From IMG/VR virus record IMGVR_UViG_3300027851_000059, positions 1-41,341 of that record: a stretch of DNA of 41,341 nucleotides; one strand, given 5' to 3'. This document shows positions 2,214 through 38,438 of this stretch, piece by piece. The notes beneath the pieces are model-generated. The model had not been told where the DNA came from, searched no databases, and saw nothing but the letters and a program-made list of their open reading frames with translations. Positions within the stretch are counted from its first letter, which is position 1. Each line of letters begins with the position of its first letter. The translations under genes were made by a program, and so were the position numbers. This stretch comes from a virus.

Positions 2214-2705
2214 ATGGAGATGACTGTTCGCCTACCTGTTCGCCCTTCTGTATATCGCTTCTGTATCTCTCTATACGGTACAGCCAGTATCAAGGTCTCA
2301 CATACGGTACCTGCCATCTATTCAGCATTTCAATTATTGCACCACCCAGAGCATTATATTGATAACCGTAGCGAGGTATTCGAAAAAGGTTTGTTCATTG
2401 AACTGATCATACCATCGGAGCTGCGCAAGAGTAATAAGTTCTTCTTAAGCGATAACCACATCAGGGTTTTCAATGGTATGATTGAGGGGCTGCTGTGCGA
2501 ACAGTTGTATCAGTATCTGGACTTAATGACCAGTAGCGGGTTGAAGATTAATGATTCGATTGAGAGCTTTAAGAAGAATTTGGGTTTGGAAGCTGACGAT
2601 TGGGCTTCGGATACGTTAAAGAAAAAATACTACCGTCACAGGCGCGCGCGCGAAAAGACAATTAAATCTTTCGGCAAAACGTCCCCTGAAAAAACGATAA
2701 AATAA
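2214..2705 (+). CDS. Uncharacterised phage protein (163 aa)
   Basis: I chose the ATG at 2214 (MEMTVRLPV) because the longer frame back to 2025 has only a GTG start and runs through the repeat-rich non-coding region. The middle of the protein (EVFEKGLFIELIIPSEL) alternates hydrophobic and charged residues. The C-terminus, about residues 120-163, is rich in Lys/Arg and Asp and resembles a basic tail (YYRHRRAREKTIKS). The stop overlaps the next start by one base (TAATG), so it is translationally coupled to the adhesin-like gene. No family recognised; it could be a DNA-binding regulator or a chaperone for the downstream protein. Confidence 0.55.
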   Translation: MEMTVRLPVRPSVYRFCISLYGTASIKVSHTVPAIYSAFQLLHHPEHYIDNRSEVFEKGLFIELIIPSELRKSNKFFLSDNHIRVFNGMIEGLLCEQLYQYLDLMTSSGLKINDSIESFKKNLGLEADDWASDTLKKKYYRHRRAREKTIKSFGKTSPEKTIK

Positions 2706-4090
2706 TGCCAAACCTAACCAACATACCTACGTTTAAAGCCCTATCTAATATGGGCGGAACGGTTGCCGAATTTGTGTTTGTAGACATAAACGATGTGGTA
2801 TTGGTGCCATCGGCCGTTCAGGGCAAAATAACTGCCGATATTGAATTGGCAGCAGGCAAAGCTTGGTTTTCGGGTACTGGGGTTATTTACGGCAATATCT
2901 TTACCGAGCTGCAGCAACCAGGCGGCAATAAGCCCGATTTTTGGAAGGTATCGTTTAAAGGTAAAATACCGGAGTGGAATAACCTTACTGCAGATCTGTT
3001 CAGTATAATGGTTCATTACCGCTTCATGGTATTGGTTACCGATATGAACGGCATGGAATGGGTACTGGGCCATCCTGATTATGAAGGATTGGAGTTTAGT
3101 AGTGATGGCAGTACCGGAAATGGAGGAAGTGGCTTTAATGGCCACGAATTTGAATTTTATGGTATCATGCCGTACAAGGCGCCCAATTATAAAGGTACTT
3201 ATACTATTGATGCTGGCGACTGCCCGCCAGCTAGCGTTACGGCCGATGGCACTACCGTTGAATTACTTGCCGGTAGCACCAACACACTAGCCGAAGTAAT
3301 TGCCGACTTCACTGACGCTGAGCTATTGGATGCCTTGCAAACCACTGGGCAAGATGCCGCACTTGAAGTAAACGTAACCGCCACCAGCGGCACTATACTT
3401 ACCATACCTATTGATACGACGGTAACTTTGGAGGATGTAATTGATGGCGCGACCGTAGTTGATATTGGCGACGCGGTAGTGGCTGATGGCAGGGCAGGGC
3501 TGGTATTTGAAGAGCTTGCCCTGAGCGTAACCAACCAAGAGGTAGAAGATGCCTTGAGCGCTACGCAACGCAAAGCATTGATAAGCATACCACCGCCAAA
3601 AATTGGCCACCCAGTGGTAATATATAGTGCCAACGACATCGGTACCAATAACCCAGGGCGATTGGTTGACTTTTTTACGTTGGCGGTAAACAACCCCAAT
3701 GGCAACACCAACCGATTTGAAAACATTGGCGCCAACGTATTAATTGATTGGGCCACAGGCTTGTATTGGACACGCGCCTTGCAAGCTACCAACACTTGGG
3801 CTGGGCACAATACAGCGGCAGCTGCGCTTACCCTTGATGGTCTTACCGGCTGGCGCTTGCCGCACGAGTCGGAGTATTATAGCATACTAAACCGATACAG
3901 CGCAACGCCATTGAACCATAGCGGCTTTGGTATAACGCTTGGCGTAAGTACCAACTTCTGGACTGGCGTAGTAAACCCTGGCAACACCGCACAAGCCTAT
4001 GTAATGAATATAACTACCGCCGGTACCGTCATCATGTCGTTTAGCGGCCGCGGCAATAGCAATGGAACTTTTTACTGCAAATCAATCTAA
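2705..4090 (+). CDS. Adhesin-like virion protein with DUF1566/Lcl-type C-type-lectin-like domain
   Basis: The C-terminal part, about residues 345-461, has the pattern of DUF1566/Lcl domains: ATGLYWTRAL, then GWRLPHESEYYSIL, then NFWTG, ending in GTFYCKSI. This fold belongs to the C-type lectin/FGE group often used for receptor binding, including by targets of diversity-generating retroelements. Residues 1-150 form a separate domain with a Gly/Ser linker near 137-145, and 170-290 is Thr/Val/Ala/Asp-rich, probably beta-structured. Likely a tail fibre tip or capsid-surface adhesin. No reverse transcriptase or template repeat was seen, so active diversification is not supported here. Confidence 0.65.
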   Translation: MPNLTNIPTFKALSNMGGTVAEFVFVDINDVVLVPSAVQGKITADIELAAGKAWFSGTGVIYGNIFTELQQPGGNKPDFWKVSFKGKIPEWNNLTADLFSIMVHYRFMVLVTDMNGMEWVLGHPDYEGLEFSSDGSTGNGGSGFNGHEFEFYGIMPYKAPNYKGTYTIDAGDCPPASVTADGTTVELLAGSTNTLAEVIADFTDAELLDALQTTGQDAALEVNVTATSGTILTIPIDTTVTLEDVIDGATVVDIGDAVVADGRAGLVFEELALSVTNQEVEDALSATQRKALISIPPPKIGHPVVIYSANDIGTNNPGRLVDFFTLAVNNPNGNTNRFENIGANVLIDWATGLYWTRALQATNTWAGHNTAAAALTLDGLTGWRLPHESEYYSILNRYSATPLNHSGFGITLGVSTNFWTGVVNPGNTAQAYVMNITTAGTVIMSFSGRGNSNGTFYCKSI

Positions 4091-5741: not shown

Positions 5742-6716
5742 ATGCCAGGATTAGATGCATCAGATATAGCGAGCGAATACGGCTCGTACTATATTAACCA
5801 AGGCCAAAACCTTCAACGTATTGCAACGCAATTAAAGTTGAAGACAAAAACGCCAATGATTGCCACGCCGGTAATTACGAGTGATACCATTTGGCGCGGT
5901 GCTACCGGCAAAATGAGTTCGGTAATACAGGCTTTCCAAAAGAACTTTACCGCGAAAGGCGATGCGACTTTTGAGGCGCAAAAAATTCCGCTTTTCAACA
6001 TCAAAGTTGACTGGGAAGATTACCCGGATGAGATTGTAGAAAACTGGATGGGTTTCTTGGCATCCATTAGCGATAATGAGCGTGCCAACTGGCCAATCAT
6101 CCGCTATATCTTGGAGGCGTATCTGATTCCTCAAATACAGCACGACTTGGAAAGCCAGTGTTACTATTTTGGTGACCACGCTGCCCCAACGCCTGGTACT
6201 GCCGGTATTACCAGCGCTGCCATGGATGGCTTGCGCAAGCAGTTAACTGCTGGCTTGTCAAGCGGCATCAATGACCTATCGGCCATCGGTACCGTAAATG
6301 CCACGAACATCTTTGATAAGGTGGAAGAAATCACCGACAAATTGACGGAGGTTTTCCGCGGGGTGCCTTTGGTTTTAGCCATGAGCACCAAAAACGTGGT
6401 ACGCTACCAGCGCGACCGCCGCAATACCCACGGCACCGACACCGTGCATGACCCGAACAAGCTTACTCCCGATTTTTACGATAGCGTAAAAATTGTTGGC
6501 TTGCCAAGCATGGATGGTACCAGCGACATGTTCCTTACCACCCAAATGAACTTGAAGTATATCCGCCGTTTGGGCAGCGAAAAGCCGTTCAAGGTGGAGA
6601 GCCAAAAGCGCTTGGTAAGCGTAATGAACGACTGGTGGGAAGGTATGGGCTTCCACTTCAATGAATTGGTGTGGTACTATCGTGATCCATCGAGCTCAAG
6701 CAGCTCAAGCTTATAG
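5742..6716 (+). CDS. Major capsid protein with C-terminal oligoserine-leucine tail
   Basis: The size (324 aa), position after protease and scaffold, and a following hairpin fit a HK97-fold major capsid protein. Features include FNIKVDWEDYPDEIVENW (about 85-102) and RRLGSEKPFKVESQKRL (about 276-292), the latter like the last capsid strands. The striking part is the end: after YYRDP come seven serines and a terminal leucine. The serine codons are mixed (tcg, agc, tca), so the tract is not recent slippage. The same ending occurs in the 184-aa protein downstream and the 144-aa protein at 22417. I infer a surface-exposed tag, possibly glycosylated. Confidence 0.75.
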   Translation: MPGLDASDIASEYGSYYINQGQNLQRIATQLKLKTKTPMIATPVITSDTIWRGATGKMSSVIQAFQKNFTAKGDATFEAQKIPLFNIKVDWEDYPDEIVENWMGFLASISDNERANWPIIRYILEAYLIPQIQHDLESQCYYFGDHAAPTPGTAGITSAAMDGLRKQLTAGLSSGINDLSAIGTVNATNIFDKVEEITDKLTEVFRGVPLVLAMSTKNVVRYQRDRRNTHGTDTVHDPNKLTPDFYDSVKIVGLPSMDGTSDMFLTTQMNLKYIRRLGSEKPFKVESQKRLVSVMNDWWEGMGFHFNELVWYYRDPSSSSSSSL

Positions 6717-6800: not shown

Positions 6801-7355
6801 ATGTTGTTAGATATTGCAGGTAACCCAACCGATAACCAAGGCGGCATAGCCTCTTACCTTGGATTGATTTTGCTAACAGATATAGCAACCCATGCTACGC
6901 CGCCAAAATCTAACGGCTCAACCCTAGCTGCCCGAACCCAATGGACTGGCGATGTGATACCGAAAGCCGGTAAGGGCTTTGCCAAGTTTGAGATTGTGCC
7001 ATACAAAGGTGGCGTAAATGCCGAATTGGTGGGCGAAACCTTTGGCAAAAGCTTTAAGCCGATGCTTACTTTCAGTATTGCCGGCACTGACCAGGACAAA
7101 GCTGAGTTTGAGAACGTATACCGCCACGGTAAGTTTGCCGCATTATACCTAGACCGCGAAGAGCGCGCCTACTTGCACGGTACCGCTGCAGCTCCGGTGA
7201 TTATAGAAACCGTGAGCGCCAACTTCGGCGATAGCCCAGAGGCGTTCAAAGGTTCATTATTTACTTTGATGTGCTACGCCAACTACGGACACGCGCCTTA
7301 CGCCGGCGCAATAACCTGGTTGACAGGCACAGGCTCAAGCAGCAGCAGCTTGTAA
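6801..7355 (+). CDS. Structural protein (tail tube or head decoration) with serine-leucine tail
   Basis: A 184-residue protein directly after the capsid gene and flanked by two hairpins, which suggests high, separate expression. The sequence is Gly/Ala/Thr-rich with predicted beta content (KFEIVPYKGGVNAELVGE, then SFKPMLTFSIAGTD). It ends in GTG, five serines and leucine, echoing the capsid tail. It could be a decoration protein or the major tail tube protein; I cannot decide. Its tail, like that of the capsid, lies just before the glycosyltransferase-like genes. Confidence 0.6.
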   Translation: MLLDIAGNPTDNQGGIASYLGLILLTDIATHATPPKSNGSTLAARTQWTGDVIPKAGKGFAKFEIVPYKGGVNAELVGETFGKSFKPMLTFSIAGTDQDKAEFENVYRHGKFAALYLDREERAYLHGTAAAPVIIETVSANFGDSPEAFKGSLFTLMCYANYGHAPYAGAITWLTGTGSSSSSL

Positions 7356-7436: not shown

Positions 7437-7718
7437 ATGCTCTACATCAATAAAACCGCCAGCCGCTACATACAGTACGGCCCCAAAAAGTACGACCTGC
7501 ACAACCTTACCGAAGACCAGGTAAAAGAATTGTTGCTCATCGGCTGTTTTCATATAGCCATAAGCGATGCGGGGCTGAAGAAGCCCTTGTTTACGGCAAA
7601 AGAAATAGTGCCCTTGGTAACGAATGCGGCTACTGCAGACGAGGCCAGCCGCTTTGCCTGCCTGAGCAGCGCCGCAACCGTTAAAACCGCTTGGCAAAAA
7701 CGCATGGAGCGCCCATGA
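7437..7718 (+). CDS. Uncharacterised protein before the glycosyltransferases (93 aa)
   Basis: The protein starts MLYINKTASRYIQYG and has a helical middle (LTEDQVKELLLIGCFHIAISDAG). It overlaps the first glycosyltransferase gene by 4 nt (ATGA), so the four genes 7437-9625 form one operon. It follows a terminator and no clear promoter is seen; expression may be read-through from the capsid operon. No family recognised. A small head protein or a cofactor of the glycosyltransferases are both possible. Confidence 0.55.
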   Translation: MLYINKTASRYIQYGPKKYDLHNLTEDQVKELLLIGCFHIAISDAGLKKPLFTAKEIVPLVTNAATADEASRFACLSSAATVKTAWQKRMERP

Positions 7719-8269
7719 GCCGCCTACATGCCTTTACGCCCTATGCTGCTGAAGGCCAAACCATAGCCCAAGCCATTGATGAGCAAATGCAAAGCTTAGC
7801 GGCTGACGATTGGGGTTTTATGATGGACCATGACGTGCACCTAACCACACCCGATTGGCACCCTGCTATACGGGCGTGTATTGCGCACAACCCCCATTAC
7901 GGCATACTTACCGTAATGACCAACCGCTGTGGTGAGTTGGCTCACCCTTGGCAGATGCAACCTAACGTGGATGTAAACAACCACGATATACACTACCATA
8001 GGCGCATTGGCAAGCAGCTATTGCAAGCGCATGGTACGTTGGTGGTAGATGTAACCCACATGAAGCGCAAAATGAACGGCGTGGCCATTGCTATCAAGCG
8101 TAGTGTTTGGGACGAACTGAAGCCACGCTTATTGCCCAGGGAAAGCATCTTGAGCTTTGACTTAAAGCTACACCGCTATGCCCGTGACAGTGGCCACTTG
8201 GTAGGGGTAATGCAAGGAATTTATGTATACCATTGGTACCGTGCCGATGGTGTAACCCATATAAGCTAA
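7715..8269 (+). CDS. GT-A-like glycosyltransferase 1
   Basis: I prefer the ATG at 7715 over an upstream TTG because it gives the usual ATGA overlap. The 184-residue protein looks like a compact GT2-type (GT-A fold) glycosyltransferase. WGFMMDHDVHL (33-43) carries a DxD-like motif (D38, D40) that would bind nucleotide-sugar and metal; GILTVMTNR (63-71), NGVAIAIKRSVWDEL (121-135) and the late GIYVYHWYRADG (168-179) are shared with the next gene. It appears to be a paralogue of gene 8274. Substrate unknown; the adjacent serine-tailed virion proteins are the obvious candidates. Confidence 0.7.
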   Translation: MSRLHAFTPYAAEGQTIAQAIDEQMQSLAADDWGFMMDHDVHLTTPDWHPAIRACIAHNPHYGILTVMTNRCGELAHPWQMQPNVDVNNHDIHYHRRIGKQLLQAHGTLVVDVTHMKRKMNGVAIAIKRSVWDELKPRLLPRESILSFDLKLHRYARDSGHLVGVMQGIYVYHWYRADGVTHIS

Positions 8270-8273
8270 CCAA

Positions 8274-8870
8274 ATGGAACAAAGGCCTGAGATAATTCAA
8301 TTTGTGCCATACGCTAAAGAAAACGAAGGCCTTGGTGCCGCTTATCATAATTGTATGCTCCGGTTGCATCAGCACGAGTGGGGTTTGCTGTGCGACTATG
8401 ATATGATGTTTCTTCCTTCCGACTATATGCGCCAGCTGGAAGAAGTGATTATGGCCAACCCGGAATATGATTGTTTTACGGTAATGACTAACCGTATAAG
8501 CAAGCTCAGGCCTCAAGCTATGCAGCTGGCCAAGGTGTTGCCGTTTGACAACCACAATATACCTGAGCACTATACCGAAGCACTTAAGATACAACGTGAT
8601 AAACGATTGAATGTGTTGGGTATAACCAACAAGTGCGAAGAAGGAATACCGGCTACCATGGGCGGGGTGGCCATCCTGATTAAGCGCACGGCCTGGGACA
8701 TCATCAATAGCACTACGGAGCCAGCTCCGCTCTGGACTTTTAAGAAACATCTTACCATTGATGGTAAGATACACAAGCGCTTAAAAACCCACGGCCTGAA
8801 GCTTGGACTAATGCAGGGCGTATATGTTTATCACCGTTACCGCCACGACGGTATAGTACACGTAAAATAG
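8274..8870 (+). CDS. GT-A-like glycosyltransferase 2 (paralogue)
   Basis: It starts 4 nt after the previous gene. It shares the block order of glycosyltransferase 1: WGLLCDYDMMF (36-46) with DxD residues D41 and D43, CFTVMTNRI, GGVAILIKRTAWDI and GVYVYHRYRHDG near the end. It has a longer middle. The pair probably arose by tandem duplication and diverged to add different sugars or act on different sites. Cytoplasmic, with no membrane segment. GT-A assignment rests on these motifs; sugar specificity cannot be read from the sequence. Confidence 0.7.
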   Translation: MEQRPEIIQFVPYAKENEGLGAAYHNCMLRLHQHEWGLLCDYDMMFLPSDYMRQLEEVIMANPEYDCFTVMTNRISKLRPQAMQLAKVLPFDNHNIPEHYTEALKIQRDKRLNVLGITNKCEEGIPATMGGVAILIKRTAWDIINSTTEPAPLWTFKKHLTIDGKIHKRLKTHGLKLGLMQGVYVYHRYRHDGIVHVK

Positions 8871-8875
8871 CATCG

Positions 8876-9625
8876 ATGCAAAAGCTAGACCTAGTTTACC
8901 CATTGGCAGCTGAGAGCGCCTGGGACCATAACGAGATACGCTACAGCTTGCGTAGCGCCGAAGCTTACTTCCCTATTAACCAAGTGTGGGTTATAGGCCA
9001 TAAGCCTGCATGGCTTACGGGTGTGCAGCACATACCGCATCCTGATCCGTACCCGGTTGGGCAAAACAAGGATGCGAACATGATACAGAAGATATTGCGG
9101 GTATGCTTTGAGCCTAGCCTTACTGCAGAATTTGTGCGAATGAGCGACGACCAGCTCTTTTTAACGCCTTGGATAAAAGAGGTGCAAGGCTTGCCCAGGG
9201 CACAGCACGAAGTAAATGCCAATAGCGACTTTACGAGCAAGGATTACCTGCAGCGGGTGCGCCGAACTTGGCAAGCTCTTGGTGCCCGCAAACTGGATTG
9301 CCTGAAGTATGAAGGGCACATACCTTACTTGTACGATAAGTACGAGTTTGGGCGTATTATGACCAGTTATGCCTACGGTGCCGATTACGGCCTTTGCATC
9401 AATACCCTGTATTTTAATACCCTTTACCCCAAGCCCATAGCGCCCATCGGCGTGGGTGATATCAAAGCGCAGTTTTTTGGACAGCAAAAACACTTTAGCC
9501 GGAAAGACATTTTGAGACGCATGGAGGGCAAATGGTTTATGAACTATAGCGACCCAGGACTGACACCAGAGCTTAAGCAGGTTATTGAGGAGCGGTTCCC
9601 AACGAAGAGCCGTTTTGAGAAATGA
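8876..9625 (+). CDS. Stealth-like sugar(-phosphate) transferase
   Basis: The 249-residue protein resembles the conserved region 2 of Stealth-type hexose-phosphate transferases and related glycosyltransferases: HNEIRYSLRSAEAYFP (18-33), VWVIGHKPAWL (37-47), an Asn/Asp-rich NKDANMIQKI (64-73) and FVRMSDDQLFLTPW (86-99) with an acidic pair D91/D92. Other Stealth regions are missing or diverged. It follows the two GT-A-like genes by 5 nt, so it probably contributes the first or the extending step of the same glycan. Alternative: a divergent GT-A enzyme without phosphotransfer activity. Confidence 0.6.
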   Translation: MQKLDLVYPLAAESAWDHNEIRYSLRSAEAYFPINQVWVIGHKPAWLTGVQHIPHPDPYPVGQNKDANMIQKILRVCFEPSLTAEFVRMSDDQLFLTPWIKEVQGLPRAQHEVNANSDFTSKDYLQRVRRTWQALGARKLDCLKYEGHIPYLYDKYEFGRIMTSYAYGADYGLCINTLYFNTLYPKPIAPIGVGDIKAQFFGQQKHFSRKDILRRMEGKWFMNYSDPGLTPELKQVIEERFPTKSRFEK

Positions 9626-21553: not shown

Positions 21554-22420
21554 ATGCTTCCCGTAAACCTCATATACAGAAGTAGCAGGCATAGGTTATA
21601 CCTAGCAACTGGCACCCATGAACTCACAGGTGACCAAGCAGCCCGTTTATACGAGCTGCAGCATAGCCAACCATCTTATGATGAATACTGCTCTAAGTTG
21701 GCTGCCATTATTTTAAAGCCCAGCATATTCAATTTGCGCCAACTCGCTTGGATTCTTGCTATCAACAATGAAGCCTTTGAGCAATTAACCCCAGCATTAG
21801 AGCCATTTCTACCAATATCGGCTGGGTCAAATAATGGTACTCAAGATCTTCAGCTCGTTTTTAGTAACCGTCAAGAGAAACAAGTATTACCTCGATTCTG
21901 GTACAAAGGATGGTTCTATGAAGGCCCCAGTACCCGGTTATCCAATATTACCTTGGAGGAGTTTGCCTATGCCGATTATTACTTCCTCCAGTACCATAAA
22001 AACCCATCGCGCGACAATATGCTGCTATTGTTAGCCTGTTTATACAGGCCTTGGCGTTGGGACAATCTCCGGCAGTATGGCGATGCAAGGCAGCAATTCA
22101 ATAGCCATACTATCGAAAGCAGGGCTGCTCACTTCGAAAGCACATTGCCCAGGTATGGCTATTATTCCTTAGAGTTTTTCCGTTCTGGGCGTGAGCTTAT
22201 TACAGAGCGGTTCAAAGACCTATTTAGCCAAGAAAATAAAGGTAAAGCGTCCAGTAGCGGCAATGGATGGGTGAACCTAATGTACAGCATGGCAGGTCCA
22301 CAATTCGGAACGGTACAACAAACTGGGCAAACTAGGCTTGGCGATGTATTGCTATACTGCCGCCAGCTGAAGCAAGAAAATGAAAGAATTGAAGCACAAA
22401 GAAATAAAAACGGATTATGA
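21554..22420 (+). CDS. Uncharacterised structural-region protein (288 aa)
   Basis: Starts MLPVNLIYRSSRHRLYLATG one base after the previous stop. Two helical halves are visible; PRFWYKGWFYEGPSTRLSNITLEEFAYADYYFLQY (about 113-147) is aromatic-rich. A late segment GKASSSGNGWVNLMYSMAG precedes a helical C-terminus. It resembles no family I can name, but genes of this size between lysis and tail genes recur in Bacteroidota siphoviruses. It overlaps the next gene by 4 nt. A neck or tail-completion role is likely. Confidence 0.55.
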   Translation: MLPVNLIYRSSRHRLYLATGTHELTGDQAARLYELQHSQPSYDEYCSKLAAIILKPSIFNLRQLAWILAINNEAFEQLTPALEPFLPISAGSNNGTQDLQLVFSNRQEKQVLPRFWYKGWFYEGPSTRLSNITLEEFAYADYYFLQYHKNPSRDNMLLLLACLYRPWRWDNLRQYGDARQQFNSHTIESRAAHFESTLPRYGYYSLEFFRSGRELITERFKDLFSQENKGKASSSGNGWVNLMYSMAGPQFGTVQQTGQTRLGDVLLYCRQLKQENERIEAQRNKNGL

Positions 22421-22851
22421 ACTACATATTGCTACTTGACTTTGGAGGATTGGATGCCGGTGAAGTATTTCTGCCAACTGCAGAACCTACTATATATAGT
22501 TCTTCCTCCAATACCGATTTTTTAATGTTGCTGGCCACCATGCAAGCCCTGCCCGATTACTTCCTGCAGGCGGTAAGTTTTAATGCTCAAGATAAATTGG
22601 CTGGCATTGAAAAAGCAATGGTTGACTCGGTAACCTGGACACCTGCCGTTGGCGATTATTACTCCGATTACAACCAAGAGCTCGACCTCTACAAAATCAC
22701 CGGCATTGTAGGAGATGAATTTTCAGTGCTCAAAATAAATGGTAACCTAACAGGCATAACCAATCCATTCCTAGAAGCAATATCAGGCTTCGAAACCGAC
22801 CGATACCAAGTATTGCACCCATCTCCATCATCTTCATCAAGTAGCTTATAA
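22417..22851 (+). CDS. Tail-region protein with C-terminal serine-leucine tail
   Basis: A 144-residue protein between putative neck and tail-terminator genes. It has an early Tyr-Ser-Ser-Ser-Ser stretch (27-31), an aromatic middle (PAVGDYYSDYNQELDLYKI) and ends HPSP, six serines, leucine. The serine codons are mixed (tca, tct, agt, agc). Its ending repeats that of the capsid and 6801 proteins although the bodies are unrelated, so the tail is a portable tag. The body may be a head-tail joining or tail-tube-associated protein; undecided. Confidence 0.6.
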   Translation: MNYILLLDFGGLDAGEVFLPTAEPTIYSSSSNTDFLMLLATMQALPDYFLQAVSFNAQDKLAGIEKAMVDSVTWTPAVGDYYSDYNQELDLYKITGIVGDEFSVLKINGNLTGITNPFLEAISGFETDRYQVLHPSPSSSSSSL

Positions 22852-32262: not shown

Positions 32263-32298
32263 AGCCCTACGTATACCCATACGTAGGGCTTTTTTTTT
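32263..32298. terminator. Bidirectional terminator between convergent genes
   Basis: AGCCCTACGTAT (32263-32274) pairs perfectly with ATACGTAGGGCT (32279-32290) around ACCC, with eight T after. The integrase stop lies within the T-run. Confidence 0.88.
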
Positions 32299-33481
32299 AT
32301 ACCACATTGGGTACTTGCTGCTTGTTTATTGCCAAAAAACGGGCATCGTATAGCAAATTGGCTTTCCGCTTACGGCTTTCTGCCAAATGGATGTAAATTT
32401 TGATCGTCTCCCACTTGCTTATGCCCATCAGCTCCATACACACCTCAGGCGAACCACCGTTCTCCAAAAACAGGGTTGCAAAAGTATGCCTGCCTATGTG
32501 AAACGACATGGGGGTTTTGATACCCGCCTTTTTCCTTACCGACTTAAGCGATTTATTTAAGGTTGCATTTTGCGTTACCTGAAAAACCCTACCCGTTTTG
32601 GTATTTACCAACGCCATTAGGTTAGGGCCAATCGGGAAAACTACCTTTAGTTTCAGCTTGCGTGTTTTTTGAGGTACAAACTCCATTTTGTCGCCAATAA
32701 ATTGGCCATGTGTAAGGTTAACTACATCTTGGTACCGCATTCCGGTGCCACAGCTCCAAAGAAAACACCTTAAAGCCTCTTGCTCGTTGTGTGGCAGCTC
32801 ATTGGTTGCAAATAGCTCTATTAGCTTATCTAGTTCAGAATTAAGCAAAGCCATACGGCTACCTCTTGGGCGCTGTACTTTAAAGTTCAAGTAAGGGTCT
32901 ATTATTTTGGCTCCAGTTTCTCGAACTAATGCCAAAAACTTCTTGAAATTTTTATGGTGCTTTCCACGTGTACTTTCTTGCAATCCATTGCTTAGCATAT
33001 GCAAGTCCCATTTCCGTACAAAAACGGTATCGATATCGCCAAATGTAGCTGAAGAACAATACTCGTTAAGCTTTACAAGCATTTGGGCATAATCTTTTTT
33101 GCTGGTCGGGTACCTTTGGCTTTCTTGCTCTATCAACCCTGCCAGAACTGATTGTACGCTGGTTCTAATTGATTTGTTGCTGTACATTTCGGCAATGGTT
33201 TGCACCGTAAAAACCTTATCGGTAAAATGCAAAGTATTGATGATATCAAACAACCTTGCATTAGCCTTAAATATGGCATCGTTGTAGGTTTTTTCTAGTT
33301 TCTTATCCTTTAAGCCCACTATCCTCTGCCCGCGAGAGTCAAAGTTTTCTGGAGCAACATGGAAACCCAATGGAATGACCTTTCTTTTCCGATCGGTAAT
33401 AATCTGTAATTGAACCGCCCTTGTTCCGTCCTCGCGAACGTAATCGCTTCTCAATACTACTTTGTGTGTTGTGTTAAACAT
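32297..33481 (-). CDS. int: Tyrosine-type site-specific integrase
   Basis: The 394-aa phage integrase has an N-terminal arm-binding region (1-90), a SAM-like core-binding domain (about 95-195) and a catalytic domain. Catalytic candidates are Arg249 (CGTGMRYQD), a Lys in QKTRK (272-275), His328 and Arg331 (FHIGRHTFA) and the nucleophile Tyr363 (KIYIHL). The second His of the usual LGH box is absent: the segment reads LMGISKWETIK. It would recombine attP with the host tRNA gene. attP lies about 135 nt upstream of its start. Confidence 0.9.
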   Translation of the reverse strand: MFNTTHKVVLRSDYVREDGTRAVQLQIITDRKRKVIPLGFHVAPENFDSRGQRIVGLKDKKLEKTYNDAIFKANARLFDIINTLHFTDKVFTVQTIAEMYSNKSIRTSVQSVLAGLIEQESQRYPTSKKDYAQMLVKLNEYCSSATFGDIDTVFVRKWDLHMLSNGLQESTRGKHHKNFKKFLALVRETGAKIIDPYLNFKVQRPRGSRMALLNSELDKLIELFATNELPHNEQEALRCFLWSCGTGMRYQDVVNLTHGQFIGDKMEFVPQKTRKLKLKVVFPIGPNLMALVNTKTGRVFQVTQNATLNKSLKSVRKKAGIKTPMSFHIGRHTFATLFLENGGSPEVCMELMGISKWETIKIYIHLAESRKRKANLLYDARFLAINKQQVPNVV

Positions 33482-37610: not shown

Positions 37611-38438
37611 ATGATTCAAATTCCTGAAATAGTAATAGAACATTTAAAAAATGGTGCACGATTAGCTATAAATCTATCGGGAGGAAAGGATAGCCAAGCA
37701 ATGGCACGTGCATTATGGGAAGCTTTGCCTGAATATCGTCACCATATGTTTTGCATCCATGCCGACCTTGGTCGTATGGAATGGACTCAAACGATTGATA
37801 TGGTGAAGCAATTGGCCAAGATGCTTAAGTTGCCTTTAACCATTGTAAGTAGGCCAAAAGGGGACTTATTAGCACGTTGGCAGGAACGAATGGAATTGTT
37901 AAAAGGTCAAAATAAACCCCATTGGAGTTCCTCAGCAGCAAGATATTGCACTAGCGATTTAAAGCGTAACCCTATTAATACTTATCTGCGCAACTATCCT
38001 TACATAATCAGTTGCGAGGGGATTAGAGCTATTGAAAGCTATAATAGGGCAAAAAAGGAAGTTTTTTCAACTAGAACAGCCATTACCACTAAAAATCGCA
38101 AGGCTTTTACCTGGTATCCAATATTTGATTGGAGCGAAGAGCAGGTATGGGAAAGTTGGGGCATGTCGAGTACTACTCTTAGTGTACTACGCCTTACATA
38201 CGCTGCAACAGGTAAAGTGCATTCTATGTGGCCATTTCATCCAGCTTATGTTTTCGGCAACCAAAGGCTTAGTTGCTGTATGTGTGTGCTTGGTAGTAAA
38301 AAAGACCTAGCCAACGGCGTAAAGCATAACCCCGAAATAGCAAAAGAACTAGCCAAAATGGAAGATGTAAGTGGCTTCACTTTCAGAAAAGATATTTCCA
38401 TAACTCAGTTAATAAAAGAACAAACGAATGCCCATTAA
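37611..38438 (+). CDS. PAPS reductase-like PP-loop protein
   Basis: ATP-pyrophosphatase (PP-loop) with SGGKDS at 23-28, followed by FCIHADLGRMEW (47-58) and Cys113 in RYCTSDLK. A cysteine cluster SCCMCVLGSKKD lies near 221-232. The 275-aa size and the cysteine pattern match phage PAPS-reductase/FAD-synthetase-like proteins and relate distantly to DndC. Such proteins could adenylate or sulfur-modify a nucleic acid or act against host defence; true PAPS reduction is less likely. It overlaps a short gene with the RAKT...SKEEM motif by 11 nt. Confidence 0.75.
   Translation: MIQIPEIVIEHLKNGARLAINLSGGKDSQAMARALWEALPEYRHHMFCIHADLGRMEWTQTIDMVKQLAKMLKLPLTIVSRPKGDLLARWQERMELLKGQNKPHWSSSAARYCTSDLKRNPINTYLRNYPYIISCEGIRAIESYNRAKKEVFSTRTAITTKNRKAFTWYPIFDWSEEQVWESWGMSSTTLSVLRLTYAATGKVHSMWPFHPAYVFGNQRLSCCMCVLGSKKDLANGVKHNPEIAKELAKMEDVSGFTFRKDISITQLIKEQTNAH

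Follow-up and report, generated by a model that had tools for sequence, protein, structure and literature searches.

A candidate virion glycosylation cassette beside a serine-tailed capsid gene in a Bacteroidota phage

Experiments have established virion glycosylation in a small number of mycobacteriophages. The C-termini of their capsid and tail-tube proteins carry glycans, according to PMC12619734, which cites Freeman 2023; the glycans are O-linked and shield the particles from antibodies, according to PMC11652166; and the reported cases named in PMC12363180 are Che8, Corndog, and Myrna. A preliminary description of the DNA studied here started from the premise that phages such as mycobacteriophages can glycosylate their own virions. 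Two enzyme families bear on the present case. Characterised Stealth proteins are sugar-1-phosphate transferases, in which conserved region 1 (CR1) is defined as IDVVYTF or similar and CR4 by the tetrapeptide CLND or CIND (PMC10668966). Glycosyltransferases of PHROG 14179 (GT14179) occur in Phapecoctavirus and in the Cellulophaga phages phi17:1, phi18:1, and phi12:1, where the DxD motif and a C-terminal His are conserved as in the enzymes described below, and where the genes are not always beside the capsid gene.

The locus that we describe shares with Che8, Corndog, and Myrna its phage-encoded glycosyltransferases and a C-terminal serine on the capsid protein, which in Che8 is also found on the major tail protein. 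The present phage differs from them in bacterial phylum and in capsid families and is known from its genes alone; its cassette lies beside the capsid gene, whereas that of Che8 (gp108-110) lies at the right genome end; and only here do we see long poly-Ser tails, a third tailed protein, and a pair of GT14179 enzymes together with a Stealth-like one. No report of virion glycosylation in Bacteroidota phages was found in the literature that we searched. Actinophages already show a trait of this kind, of which the present case is a Bacteroidota variant; within that literature, this variant, its poly-Ser form, and the coupling of tag and cassette across unrelated capsid families appear to be new.

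The window, i.e., the whole stretch of DNA that was analysed, comprises 41,341 nucleotides of IMG/VR record IMGVR_UViG_3300027851_000059, a linear and, by its classification, possibly partial record of a phage whose hosts are Bacteroidota-type bacteria. The features that we refer to are these:

2705-4090, upstream of the head genes: large protein with an Lcl_C domain at its C-terminus (E 6e-10)
5742..6716, + strand: major capsid protein of predicted HK97 fold, tail PSSSSSSSL, presumed acceptor
6801..7355, + strand: neighbour protein, tail GTGSSSSSL, possibly a tail-tube protein
7437..7718, + strand: small ORF between the neighbour and the transferases; a small gene of cluster 7 is often at that place in relatives
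7715..8269, + strand: GT-A glycosyltransferase 1, DxD at D38/D40 (PHROG 14179)
8274..8870, + strand: GT-A glycosyltransferase 2, paralogue of 1, DxD at D41/D43 (PHROG 14179)
8876..9625, + strand: candidate Stealth-like sugar-phosphate transferase (PHROG 7999)
22417..22851, + strand: third serine-tailed protein, HPSPSSSSSSL, near tail genes
32297-33481, - strand: tyrosine integrase (temperate phage)
37611-38438, + strand: PAPS-reductase-like gene

The ORFs, coordinates, and strand given in the preliminary description for the capsid, neighbour, and transferase genes were all reproduced. That description had spoken of two serine-tailed genes, and both are real, but a third (22417-22851) had been overlooked; it lies far from the cassette and has no homologue among 29 related records. 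Similarly, the cassette was said to follow directly after the tailed neighbour, and it does form an adjacent block, but the small ORF intervenes. The three enzyme genes share the strand of the capsid gene, and only 4-5 bases separate each from the next.

The capsid protein ends in RDPSSSSSSSL, with serine codons TCG AGC TCA AGC AGC TCA AGC, and the neighbour in GTGSSSSSL, with codons TCA AGC AGC AGC AGC. Because the codons are mixed and the runs occur at three loci, the serine runs do not come from one simple DNA repeat. A run of five serines before the last residue is expected by chance in about 7e-7 of proteins, given that serine makes up 5.9% of residues. The AlphaFold2 (AF2) model of the capsid protein (pLDDT 87) has a disordered tail end, and in Foldseek searches of the PDB it matches the capsids of phiRSA1, P2/P4, and HK97 with E down to 3e-10, so by its modelled fold the product is an HK97-fold major capsid protein. 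The neighbour-type gene (cluster 0) follows the capsid gene in nearly all relatives. Searches of the PDB and Pfam with the neighbour protein gave nothing usable, and one of its 45 homologues matches the major tail protein family PHROG 476 in a single weak match (E 0.0018); the protein is possibly a tail-tube protein.

The two GT-A genes are 34% identical to each other and match PHROG 14179, annotated "glycosyltransferase", with E 2e-19 and 7e-17, respectively. In an alignment of 46 homologues, both Asp residues of the DxD motif are invariant, as are, numbered by the second enzyme, R74, W141, Y184, and H187, and the AF2 model of the second enzyme (pLDDT 90.9) has hyaluronan synthase, LARGE1, GalNAc-T2, and SpsA as its top Foldseek matches. 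The description of these genes as two paralogous GT-A-like genes with DxD motifs thus holds.

The third enzyme had been called Stealth-like, and this name fits it in part. Its start contains LDLVY (LDLVYPL), which falls within the CR1 definition and reads VDVVY or TDVVY in relatives; its D91-D92 pair is conserved, as the corresponding Asp pair is in the CpsY/GlcNAc-1-phosphotransferase family (PMC10668966); and it resembles that family in the CR2 region. The Pfam Stealth_CR2 match (E 7e-5, 23.5 bits) is, however, below the curated cut-off of 39.4, and relatives reach E 1e-8 and at best 35.4 bits. The CR4 tetrapeptide CLND/CIND is absent from 8876-9625, which has NYSD at that place (NYND or HDD in relatives), although one relative matches Stealth_CR4 with E 0.005. 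Since CR2 is below cut-off and the CR4 motif is absent, we describe the protein as Stealth-like without assigning it to the family, from which it also differs in being a short single-domain phage protein whose acceptor is presumably a protein serine. It also matches PHROG 7999 (E 9e-25), a family of unknown function.

To compare tails and transferases, we used about 120 related phages overall. Capsid relatives were gathered from IMG/VR and from GTDB genomes, the latter with hosts given as Bacteroidota in their record titles. They form 97 unique capsid loci, of which 84 are readable, meaning that the whole stretch from capsid to large terminase is visible or that a transferase lies within it; two loci, L076 and L295, have a tail but were left out of the counts because the contig ends before the position of interest. 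Some loci entered via transferase searches, which enriches transferase-bearing loci but not tails. The position after the capsid, neighbour, and small gene behaves as a slot, which holds sugar enzymes in 22 of the 84 loci and no transferase in the other 62. Its contents are varied, comprising GT14179, Stealth-like, GT2, GT4-type, GT11, and GT25-like enzymes, an FkbM methyltransferase with GT47, other methyltransferases, and fusions, and this variety points to convergence on a glycan function.

The capsid ends follow the slot. Where it is filled, they read TGSGSV, TGSGSN, SGSGSI, AGSGSL, AGSGSR, QASASI, EASGSGA, AS repeats, or SSSSSSSL, whereas without a transferase they are typically TNDQDLV-like. 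We defined the tail motif, after inspection of the data, as [ST][GA]S or SSS within the 10 C-terminal residues, and with this definition 16/22 transferase-bearing loci (GT+) have it versus 0/62 without (GT-; Fisher 1e-12). Raw counts agree for three alternative definitions (last 20 residues, at least two Ser, and terminal Ser): within the last 20 residues the motif is found in 18/22 versus 1/62, and a serine is among the last three residues in 19/22 versus 6/62. The neighbour protein behaves likewise, with a serine in its last three residues in 20/22 versus 7/61 (p 2e-11). Outside the capsid and neighbour, the motif is rare in GT+ genomes. Judged by the sequences compared, the poly-Ser form is peculiar to the present phage, and the putative acceptor signature elsewhere is mostly TGSGS, AGSGS, or ASAS. 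On a tree built from the capsid core with tails removed, the transferase state changes 10 times and GT+ loci are patchy. Among nine independent contrasts, the motif follows the transferase state in 6-7, does neither in 2-3, and practically never runs counter to it (sign test, median p 0.016-0.03, but 0.125 for the definition with at least two Ser).

Two capsid C-termini are extended by short repeats: that of L100:8989-10041 by ASASAS..., with a Stealth-like gene present, and that of L105:8944-10089 by QGDDSGET, with no transferase found.

The same coupling is seen beyond this capsid family. At transferase loci outside it, tailed proteins lie 2-3 genes upstream of the transferase, making up 10/131 genes there versus 6/914 elsewhere (p 3e-6). 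Six of these loci define a second family of capsid-like proteins, about 330 residues long, which by position, length, and context are probably capsids, and within this family the tail is present in the last 10 residues of 6/6 proteins with transferases versus 0/15 without (p 2e-5). The preliminary description had named serine tails in relatives without transferases as a finding that would speak against it; they number 0/62 and 0/15 in these two unrelated capsid families, and the co-occurrence that it proposed looking for is seen in 16/22 and 6/6 transferase-bearing loci.

In 16 actinophages, the capsid ends in Ser in 6/6 with a GT2 or Stealth match versus 1/10 without (p 9e-4). The six transferase-bearing ends are AGSGS, AGSGS, PDGS, YAGS, KTGS, and RAGS; in Che8 the capsid ends in NKTGS and the tail protein in YSDGS. 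The sole exception is Rando14 (L334, 6998-7930), whose capsid ends in AGDGS and whose genome has no GT2 or Stealth match. The capsids of Fionnbharth, with Stealth gp6, and of transferase-free TM4 can be aligned over their whole length, the former exceeding the latter by exactly GSGS at its C-terminus. The Cellulophaga phages phi18:1 and phi17:1, each with a GT14179 gene, have a capsid ending in SGT and a tail protein ending in VGT, which is anecdotally a threonine version of the tail.

From the coupling in two capsid families and in actinophages, we conclude that the cassette is likely a virion glycosylation system acting on the C-terminal serines of the capsid and the neighbour, as the preliminary description had proposed, and perhaps on those of the third protein; by analogy with some mycobacterial phages, the virions are probably sugar-coated. 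Four motif-less GT+ loci (L008, L013, L131, and L062) and the Rando14 tail without a transferase are points against this reading, as are the GT14179 genes of Phapecoctavirus, to which no target is assigned. A different target is indeed conceivable: the transferases could act on the O-antigen or capsule at the host surface, or on the DNA of the phage, as phage glycosyltransferases do in other systems (PMC12619734), the serine tails having some other job, and an integrase in the phage makes lysogenic conversion of the host surface conceivable. The transferase genes are, however, within the head gene block and not in a lysogenic-conversion region. DNA hypermodification was considered and rejected, there being no thymidylate-synthase- or hydroxymethylase-type gene found in the window. 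Neither target predicts the coupling in two capsid families and actinophages, and we regard this reading as improbable.

Proximity might also link tail and cassette without any shared function, if recombination swaps the capsid 3′ end together with the cassette and the tail is a linker. The two are indeed 1-3 genes apart, and GT+ loci are patchy on the tree with their 10 changes, but the one to three genes in between are ordinary ones, at these loci the neighbour protein carries a tail unlike that of the capsid, and the tail sequences vary (SSSSSSS, TGSGS, ASASAS). Moreover, the coupling holds in actinophages, where the transferase genes are unlinked, tens of kb from the capsid gene (Che8 gp108-110), and we give proximity alone very little credence. 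Least probable, by a little, is that the host modifies the tails and the phage genes merely extend its glycan. Bacteroidota possess a general O-glycosylation system, but it acts in the periplasm and capsid assembly is cytoplasmic; tails can accompany a Stealth enzyme alone; and a search of the serine tails for the sequon D-[ST]-[AILVMT] found none, in keeping with the earlier statement that they carry no D-S/T-X.

We base a model of phage-directed virion glycosylation on the observed identities of the genes, the folds and intact catalytic residues of their products, the tail sequences, and the statistical coupling of tails with cassettes. In the late phase of gene expression, the three enzymes, encoded beside the capsid gene, would be made in the cytoplasm and would transfer sugar or sugar-1-phosphate from a presumed donor onto the serine hydroxyls of flexible, presumably exposed C-terminal tails of the capsid, of the neighbour as a possible tail-tube protein, and perhaps of a third virion protein. 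The Stealth-like enzyme would attach the initial residue, which the GT-A pair would then extend. We infer this order because tails accompany Stealth as a single enzyme in L003, L100, L136, Fionnbharth, and Reptar3000, whereas L008 and L013, with GT14179 and GT2 but no Stealth, have only a terminal Ser. A phosphodiester linkage is conceivable, given the sugar-1-phosphate transferase activity of the Stealth proteins that have been characterised. In L120:7786-9921, L131:7789-9930, and L125:8317-9930, a Stealth-like domain is joined within one protein to a GT4-type, GT14179, or GT2 domain, which supports a common pathway. The outcome would be a glycan layer over head and tail that may serve in shielding or attachment.

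More tentatively, and with the odds rather against it, Ser/Gly C-tails might be a general convergent acceptor tag for Stealth-type phospho-glycosylation with exchangeable glycosyltransferase cassettes, readable from the capsid end across phyla. To our knowledge, phospho-glycosylation of serine by a Stealth-type enzyme has not yet been described for phages. A tag-cassette rule would extend virion glycosylation to many Bacteroidota phages and would permit its prediction from sequence and testing in cultured systems, e.g., Cellulophaga phages. Sugar-coated particles would alter encounters of gut and aquatic phages with mucus, host glycans, and antibodies. Tag and enzyme together might become a compact tool for placing glycans onto protein C-termini.

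Several further observations were made. Cellulophaga phi18:1 (L344; 21505-22728, 24849-26093, and 29783-30217), with capsid end VSGT, tail protein end VGT, and a GT14179-type gene, is a cultured Bacteroidota phage for which, according to its record, virion MS/MS data exist. The capsid ORFs L008:9866-10951, L013:9866-10951, L011:973-2055, and L003:9839-11023 have a hydrophobic N-terminus like a signal peptide, for example MKKFRFIAMILLGIIVVFSSG, which is odd for a cytoplasmic capsid protein, and the next gene after the capsid in L008, L011, and L013 also has such a start. For the Lcl_C gene (2705-4090), a diversity-generating retroelement was considered, and since no reverse transcriptase or repeat was found, the gene is not a visible element of this kind; its homologues are at the same place upstream of the head genes in several relatives.
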